A stretch of 44,417 bases of DNA from Candidatus Cloacimonadota bacterium (GTDB lineage Bacteria; Cloacimonadota; Cloacimonadia; Cloacimonadales; WRIO01): assembly GCA_029553545.1 (NCBI GenBank), contig JAKPKU010000245.1:1-44417 (forward strand), in the 5' to 3' direction. Positions 449 through 21,236 of the stretch are shown in pieces. A model generated the notes under the pieces. The model saw only the letters and a list, made by a program, of their open reading frames with translations. It ran no database searches and was not told the origin of the DNA. The position numbers and the translations under genes were made by a program. Positions within the stretch are counted from its first letter, which is position 1; every line of letters starts with the position of its first letter.

Positions 449-539
449 TTAGTTGCCTCCTTTTAGCAATTAGGTATAATACTATAGTTTATTATTATCT
501 TTGTCAATAAAAAAATTATTTAATTTTTGTTTTGTTGTA

Positions 540-640
540 GGTTAGGTACTTTTCTTCGTAAAGGTTAGGTATTTTCACTTCGTGAAAAGTTAGGTACTTC
601 GACTTCGTCGAAGGTTAGGAGCTTTCACATTTGTGAAAGG
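540..640. repeat. Array of four short hairpins separated by a conserved GGTTAGG(T/A)(A/G)C linker
   Basis: Linkers at ~540-549, 563-571, 588-597, 613-622; hairpins cttt..aaag (549-563), ttttcac-ttc-gtgaaaa (572-588), cttcgac-ttc-gtcgaag (597-613), ctttcaca-tt-tgtgaaag (622-639). Confidence 0.85.
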
Positions 641-813
641 TTTTTTTTTAAGGTAGCAGAAGCGATAAATGCGACTTCGTCGCTTTCTGACGAGCACAGC
701 TCGCCCCTACATTATTTTGGTAAGGTAAAAAATCAGTATGAAGATGCAATAATAGAGGTGGTTTTTTATAACAAATAGTAGAAAATACATAGAGTAAATT
801 AAAAAAGAAAATA

Positions 814-842
814 TTGCCTTGACAATGTAAAAAGATTATAAT
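814..842 (+). promoter_or_regulatory. Putative sigma-70 type promoter of the HTH-EIIA gene
   Basis: TTGCCT (814-819) - 17 nt - TATAAT (837-842), 37 nt upstream of the ATG at 879. Confidence 0.5.
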
Positions 843-5760: not shown

Positions 5761-5847
5761 AAAAATCAATTGATTTTTTACCTAACCTTCGACGAAGGCG
5801 AAGTTCCTAACCTTTACTAAGTAAAGTACCTCACCCGCAGCGTAGCG
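5761..5847. repeat. Second hairpin array (reverse orientation) with the same GGTTAGG(T/A)AC linker, abutting an 18-bp perfect palindrome
   Basis: Plus strand: aaaaatcaattgattttt (5761-5778), acctaacc (5780-5787), ttcgacgaaggcgaa (5788-5802), gttcctaacc (5803-5812), tttactaagtaaa (5813-5825), gtacctcacc (5826-5835), cgcagcgtagcg (5836-5847). Confidence 0.75.
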
Positions 5848-5923
5848 AGGACCAAAAGGTGTGTTGTTTAAAAAAGAAAGGTGAATTGTGGAATGCGTAT
5901 ATTACAATAATCACAATTTTATC

Positions 5924-21059: not shown

Positions 21060-21234
21060 TATTGCCCCGCTATTGCCGTGTTTTATTTGCCCCTGAAACC
21101 TAAGTTACAAGGTGGGCATCTACCTTCTAAGCTTTATAAATCCTGCATGGCAGGCATATATGCCACTTATGGCTCGATTCCCTTTATATATTTGGTTCCT
21201 TCACAAACTTAAAATCACAAGCATAGCAGGGTTA
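21060..21234 (-). ncRNA. ssrS: 6S RNA (SsrS), between zapA and rny
   Basis: Minus-strand gap folds with a long closing stem: 5' CCCUGCUAUGCUUGU pairs with 3' ACACGGCAAUAGCGGGG (one bulge either side of GCU/GGC), inner pairing GGAACC/GGUUUC, apical hairpin region and GGUAGAUGCCCACCUU; location directly downstream of zapA is the classical 6S position. End coordinates approximate. Confidence 0.82.
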
Positions 21235-21236
21235 AT

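Follow-up and report, generated by a model that had tools for sequence, protein, structure and literature searches.

Intergenic hairpin arrays of a Cloacimonadota genome look like a strictly ordered, mix-and-match variety of known mobile REP repeats

Background

The REP sequences of the GTAG super-family, associated with RAYT (TnpAREP) transposases, are short tagged extragenic palindromes, present in high copy and specific to the species (PMC2817692, PMC3733652, PMC6006769). Their usual tag is GTAG (PMC2817692, PMC3733652, PMC6006769), and a GTAG or GTGG located 0-2 nt upstream of the stem has served as a criterion for REPs (PMC6006769). RAYTs and REPs have been described mostly from Proteobacteria, and the formation of BIME mosaics is still a model (PMC2817692, PMC3733652). 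BIMEs and REPINs are clustered intergenic mosaics of several palindrome types, and are proposed to be non-autonomous units mobilised by RAYTs.

The hairpin arrays described here share these traits with REPs and BIMEs: they consist of short, tagged, high-copy extragenic palindromes of several types, clustered between genes and kept by complementary changes, in a genome that has RAYT genes and in which GTAG-REPs are intermixed with the arrays. They differ from REPs in their tag, which is GTTAGG-TA and not a stem-adjacent GTAG (the units carry GTTAGGTAC, with neither GTAG nor GTGG 0-2 nt before the stem), and in that several different stems are strung within each array. From BIMEs and REPINs they differ in being head-to-tail instead of alternating in orientation, nearly fixed in order, built of interchangeable hairpins and closed by one of two alternative terminal modules.

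Results and discussion

Two arrays in the window

In the window (the whole stretch of DNA analysed, 44,417 nt), four head-to-tail units with one short palindrome each occupy positions 541-649 of the plus strand; their GTTAGG linkers start at 541, 564, 589 and 614, that is 23, 25 and 25 nt apart. The four-unit iterated hairpin array with a constant linker that the initial annotation had reported at 540-640 is therefore present. The features of the region are:

521-540, plus: 5' neighbour of the array, similar to the tail of a T2 module (ATTTTTGTTTTGTTGTAGG)
541-563, plus: unit 1, 23 nt, linker GTTAGGTAC, hairpin CTTTTC-TTC-GTAAAG at 549-563
564-588, plus: unit 2, 25 nt, type E, GTTAGGTA, hairpin TTTTCAC-TTC-GTGAAAA at 572-588
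589-613, plus: unit 3, 25 nt, type G, GTTAGGTAC, hairpin CTTCGAC-TTC-GTCGAAG at 597-613
614-653, plus: terminal unit T1, terminator-like, GTTAGGAG, hairpin CTTTCAC-ATTT-GTGAAAG at 622-639, T-run, AAGG
653-710, no strand assigned: REP doublet after T1, with GTAG at 653-656, hairpin GCGAC-TTC-GTCGC at 671-683 and GTAG-REP GTAGGGGCGAGCTGTGCTCGTCAG at 687-710 (minus)
879-1562, plus: downstream gene, HTH_17 and PTS EIIA-like protein

The claim that each arm matches its partner holds for units 2 to 4 but not for unit 1, whose hairpin pairs imperfectly because of one mismatch; this hairpin is a chimera of CTTTTC/GAAAAG and CTTTAC/GTAAAG, both of them frequent unit types elsewhere. The S hairpin usual in other arrays is absent, and the array starts directly behind the T2-like tail, while the module that follows T1 has GTAG...CTAC ends. 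Folded as single-stranded DNA, positions 539-642 reach -16.8 kcal/mol; dinucleotide shuffles give -6.2 +/- 2.0 (z -5.4; 0/200). The array lies between divergent promoter-like sites at 479-507 (minus) and 814-842 (plus), and therefore probably falls outside both flanking transcripts.

A second array is found at 5761-5850 on the minus strand, and both sit in divergent intergenic regions. Its hairpins are:

5835-5850, minus: S hairpin, CCTCGC-TAC-GCTGCGG, imperfect, with one bulge
5812-5826, minus: unit hairpin, CTTTAC-TTA-GTAAAG
5787-5803, minus: unit hairpin, CTTCGCC-TTC-GTCGAAG, with one mismatch
5761-5778, minus: terminal T2 hairpin, AAAAATC-AATT-GATTTTT

The array at 541-649 has no Rfam family: in a search of the window only 6S RNA scored above its gathering threshold (RF00013, 63.8 bits, at 21060-21235 on the minus strand).

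Two other kinds of array were considered. A CRISPR array, with identical repeats and unique spacers, was rejected, in agreement with the initial annotation, since what varies is drawn from a limited repertoire of palindromes that recur. Integron attC sites have a GTTRRRY core, which the array linker GTTAGGT fits; this origin was also rejected, because the GTTAGGT copies are direct and on one strand only, with no inverted RYYYAAC partner and no gene cassettes.

A genome-wide family with a nearly fixed order

Pairs of the form GTTAGG-N(12-40)-GTTAGG occur 110 times in the 2.88-Mb genome, compared with 6 for the reversed control. From 30 fetched stretches of this draft genome (268 contigs, with many arrays near contig ends) we extracted 47 arrays, counting those of the window, so that the genome holds at least 47. 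Essentially all are intergenic: with ORFs called by length only, a single array of the 47 lies across an ORF that reaches the minimum of 110 codons, and this ORF (125 aa) is doubtful. The units are thus, like REPs, extragenic palindromes of 20-40 nt in high copy.

Within each array all GTTAGG units point in the same direction, and the order from 5' to 3' is S, 23-nt units, 25-nt units, an optional second S and a terminal T1 or T2. S is the imperfect hairpin GGTCCTCGCTTCGCTGCGG; the stems of the 23-nt units are CTTTTC, CTTTAC, CATTGC and CTTTGC, those of the 25-nt units TTTTCAC, CTCTGAC, CTTCGAC and CTTTCAC; T1 consists of the CTTTCAC hairpin and a T-run, and T2 is AAAAATCAATTGATTTTT. This order is nearly fixed, a 23-nt unit standing immediately before a 25-nt unit 37 times and immediately after one once, yet the 47 arrays show 33 distinct compositions.

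The hairpins are often preceded by a TNAGG tag, commonly followed by TA, as in the unit 2 sequence above and in TGTAGGTA, TAAAGGTA, ATAAGGTA and TGTAGGGG. The GTAG form is present in modules neighbouring the arrays (GTAGGTAATTTCAC, GTAGGGGCGAGC) and absent from the GTTAGG units. In our reading of these sequences GTAG, the usual REP tag, may be one form of the TNAGG tag.

The placement of the arrays bears on the proposal that they are terminators, attenuators or mRNA-end structures, in which T1 with its T-run would end transcription. By score T1 does count as an intrinsic terminator (observed 1, expected 0.2), and it stands at the end of 24 of the 47 arrays; however, 21 others end in the A/T-rich T2, the 5' gene reads into the array in only 11 of the 33 placed arrays with T1 or T2, and the window array lies between divergent promoter-like sites. 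An intrinsic terminator was accordingly rejected, since T1 has the hairpin and the T-run but the arrays show no placement downstream of co-oriented genes; a terminator function of the arrays in general is unlikely, and we judge the whole proposal very improbable. Concerning the location bias that the initial annotation had advised looking for, the arrays are intergenic and often divergent in placement but show no preference for the 3' ends of genes, which speaks against the mRNA-end element it had listed among three options.

Covariation of the stems

Among distinct 23-nt units 95% of the stem cells are paired, with 13 double-sided changes, and among distinct 25-nt units 94%, with 17; in both cases 0/500 shuffles were as high, the counts being uncorrected for the relatedness of copies. 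One pair of the S hairpin reads GC 48 times, AT 13, AC 3 and GT 1 (Fisher p 4.5e-10, likewise uncorrected for copy relatedness). Both other genomic copies and covariation, on which the initial annotation had made its proposal depend, have therefore been found. The compensatory change that it described is real between unit types and at this S-hairpin pair; within one type, stem changes are mostly uncompensated singles. The unit types are discrete, with strong stem covariation between them, and three hairpins, unit 1 of the window among them, join the arms of two types. The 33 compositions in a nearly fixed order, taken together with these three chimeric hairpins, point to an exchange of modules.

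Such exchange could also come about if recombination, slippage or template switching had spread the arrays and quasi-palindrome correction kept the pairing, the RAYTs being incidental. Gene conversion from one array to another would be expected to leave chimeric hairpins and module mosaics, and the discreteness of the stem types fits as well, but the presence of arrays at dozens of unrelated intergenic sites requires a dispersal activity, and we hold this explanation to be unlikely.

RAYTs of the same genome

The search for a REP-associated tyrosine transposase, suggested by the initial annotation, gave two RAYTs, on contigs C113 and C20. The C113 protein (216 aa) scores 80.5 bits with the NCBIfam equivalog REP_Tyr_transpos, against a cut-off of 80, and is similar to the solved TnpArep 4er8 (E 6e-8), with the NHxH and Tyr motifs aligned; the C20 protein (211 aa) was found with the C113 protein as query and aligned to it. 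The immediate neighbours of the C113 gene on both flanks are inverted long cruciform modules, GCTTCGCTGCGGGTA...GCAGCGAAGC, and a GTTAGG array lies about 0.6 kb upstream. The C20 gene has inverted GTAG-REPs, GTAGGGGCGAGC-NNN-GCTCGTCAG, on both flanks, and the same REP is found at 687-710 (minus) of the window, beside the array. It should be noted that no RAYT of this genome stands between two GTTAGG arrays, C113 having cruciform modules and C20 GTAG-REPs, a point in favour of spread by recombination with incidental RAYTs.

The cruciform module has the structure GCTTCGCTGCGGGTA-(hairpin)-TACCC-(ACAACTATCCTTAGTTGT)-GCAGCGAAGC; two copies are at 1215-1320 and 2335-2425 of the fetched locus L051, and the fetched DNA contains 11.

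Other candidate mobilisers were evaluated. Two Y1 transposases were set aside. The one on contig C186, of 131-133 aa, belongs to an IscB-carrying IS200/IS605 element (locus L049, 254-1869), whose IscB gene beside TnpA scores 337 bits with NCBIfam guided_IscB; the other is encoded on a contig of 1.3 kb, C133, and is possibly foreign. An orphan family of proteins of about 190-220 aa has about 17 copies here (58-75% identical, several with internal stops) and no Pfam or NCBIfam match above cut-off. Its members are on C113 (L051, 207-875, minus), C75, C20, C180, C228, C210, C62 and others, at least seven of them close to hairpin arrays; as mobiliser of the arrays it was rejected, because an array-free genome of the same genus also has at least two copies.

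Arrays and RAYTs in related genomes

This congener, G104, gave no RAYT match, and in the 1.44 Mb searched of its approximately 2.1 Mb arrays and GTTAGGTAC are absent, as are essentially all associated modules. The gene at position 879 of the window has an 88% identical counterpart there, whose upstream region is without the array, and it is also missing from two further intergenic regions of G104, those between genes that lie on either side of an array here and next to each other there. Within the genus, a comparison of two genomes, the arrays are therefore species-specific and their presence follows that of a RAYT, as is the case for REPs.

In G106, a genome of the same family, a RAYT is embedded in arrays that repeat GTAGCAGAAATCTCCGATTTC head to tail and in which GTTAGG joins some of the units; this GTAG hairpin unit has about 250 copies genome-wide and 0 in controls. 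The G106 arrays resemble ours in their head-to-tail units (of about 28-30 nt), in some of the linkers and in their genome-wide spread, and differ in having a single hairpin, AAATC-GGA-GATTT, throughout and a linker with GTAG on the opposite strand. The RAYT embedded in them, on contig C9 (L086, 1673-2257, minus), has its reading frame interrupted by copies of its own hairpin repeat, giving KSEISFDG-like peptide repeats.

Across the phylum, sufficient flanking sequence was available for 16 RAYT loci, and at 11 of them the two flanks have a 14-nt hairpin core in common, compared with 0/60 and 0/185 control windows; many RAYT loci have inverted hairpin pairs with GTAG/CTAC or related ends. Spread by recombination alone remains the main rival, but both this tight linkage of RAYTs and hairpins and the lack of arrays in the RAYT-free congener call for a dispersal activity. 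The array-free sites of G104 also tell against terminators.

The same sites bear on the hypothesis that a DNA-binding protein of the host, such as gyrase, IHF or a regulator, binds to the arrays, the constant linker being the recognition signal. The constancy of the linker and the frequent divergent placement agree with it, and E. coli BIMEs bind gyrase and IHF (PMC2817692), but the arrays are not conserved in G104 and vary freely in position and composition. We give this hypothesis hardly any credence as the main explanation; a mobile repeat may, however, bind a protein as a secondary function.

A putative RAYT-mobilised element

Of the three options in the initial annotation the REP/RAYT-like unit is the best supported, by the RAYTs of this genome and by the RAYT-hairpin association across the phylum, and we favour a mobile REP/BIME-like element over a regulatory one. 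The arrays are probably intergenic, non-autonomous elements, related to REPs and similar to BIMEs, that a RAYT mobilises. Each would be a chain of small DNA hairpins sharing a 5' tag (TNAGG, often with TA; here GTTAGGTAC), whose palindromes would extrude in single-stranded DNA, such as the template of the lagging strand. A RAYT from another genomic locus would recognise hairpin and tag, cut beside the tag and rejoin the ends in trans, so that arrays would be copied to new intergenic sites and single hairpin modules swapped between arrays, the swapping leading to ordered mosaics with interchangeable hairpins. We infer the mobility of the arrays from their distribution; recognition and cutting by the RAYT, and module exchange by that route, are likewise conclusions that we draw from the comparisons above. 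Several observations speak against this reading: the units have no canonical GTAG or GTGG directly before the hairpin and run head-to-tail, the two RAYT genes have other modules than GTTAGG arrays as their immediate neighbours, the comparison within the genus comprises two genomes, and neither a precise empty site nor a target duplication was identified.

More tentatively, and with some doubt, the arrays could be a slot-based element (S, slots 1-3, optional S, T1 or T2) in which the RAYT cuts at the TNAGG before each hairpin and swaps modules singly. If so, the compensatory differences between stems would arise by replacement of whole hairpins and not by point mutation.

Dozens of arrays with discrete, countable modules, a congener with neither RAYT nor arrays, and a phylum in which most RAYTs have hairpin pairs of their own make two points testable in this system, namely the exchange of single hairpins by RAYTs and their tolerance of an altered 5' tag.

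Other repeats of the genome and of the phylum

Phage and plasmid collections searched for the arrays gave no match. A search within the genome for empty sites, with both flanks located elsewhere, matched only inside other repeat modules, the flanks themselves being repeats. On many contigs further modules adjoin the arrays, namely AACAACACAC-rich segments, ATACAAATAAGGCTATTTGTAT and AAGTTGCAACTTC, and the intergenic DNA of this genome is a mosaic of several repeat-module families.

Where other genomes of the phylum show GTTAGG-spaced patterns, these are mostly different repeats, and therefore the motif alone is not diagnostic. Genomes of the same order have such repeats with units of 31-33 nt (GTTAGGCAACTATTATTCTTCGCCGAACGGA, in G062) or 23 nt (GTTAGGGGGTTGATTGGTTCTTG, in G063), while G034 carries 7-nt GTTAGGT tandems with hairpin insertions and G044 7-nt tandems.
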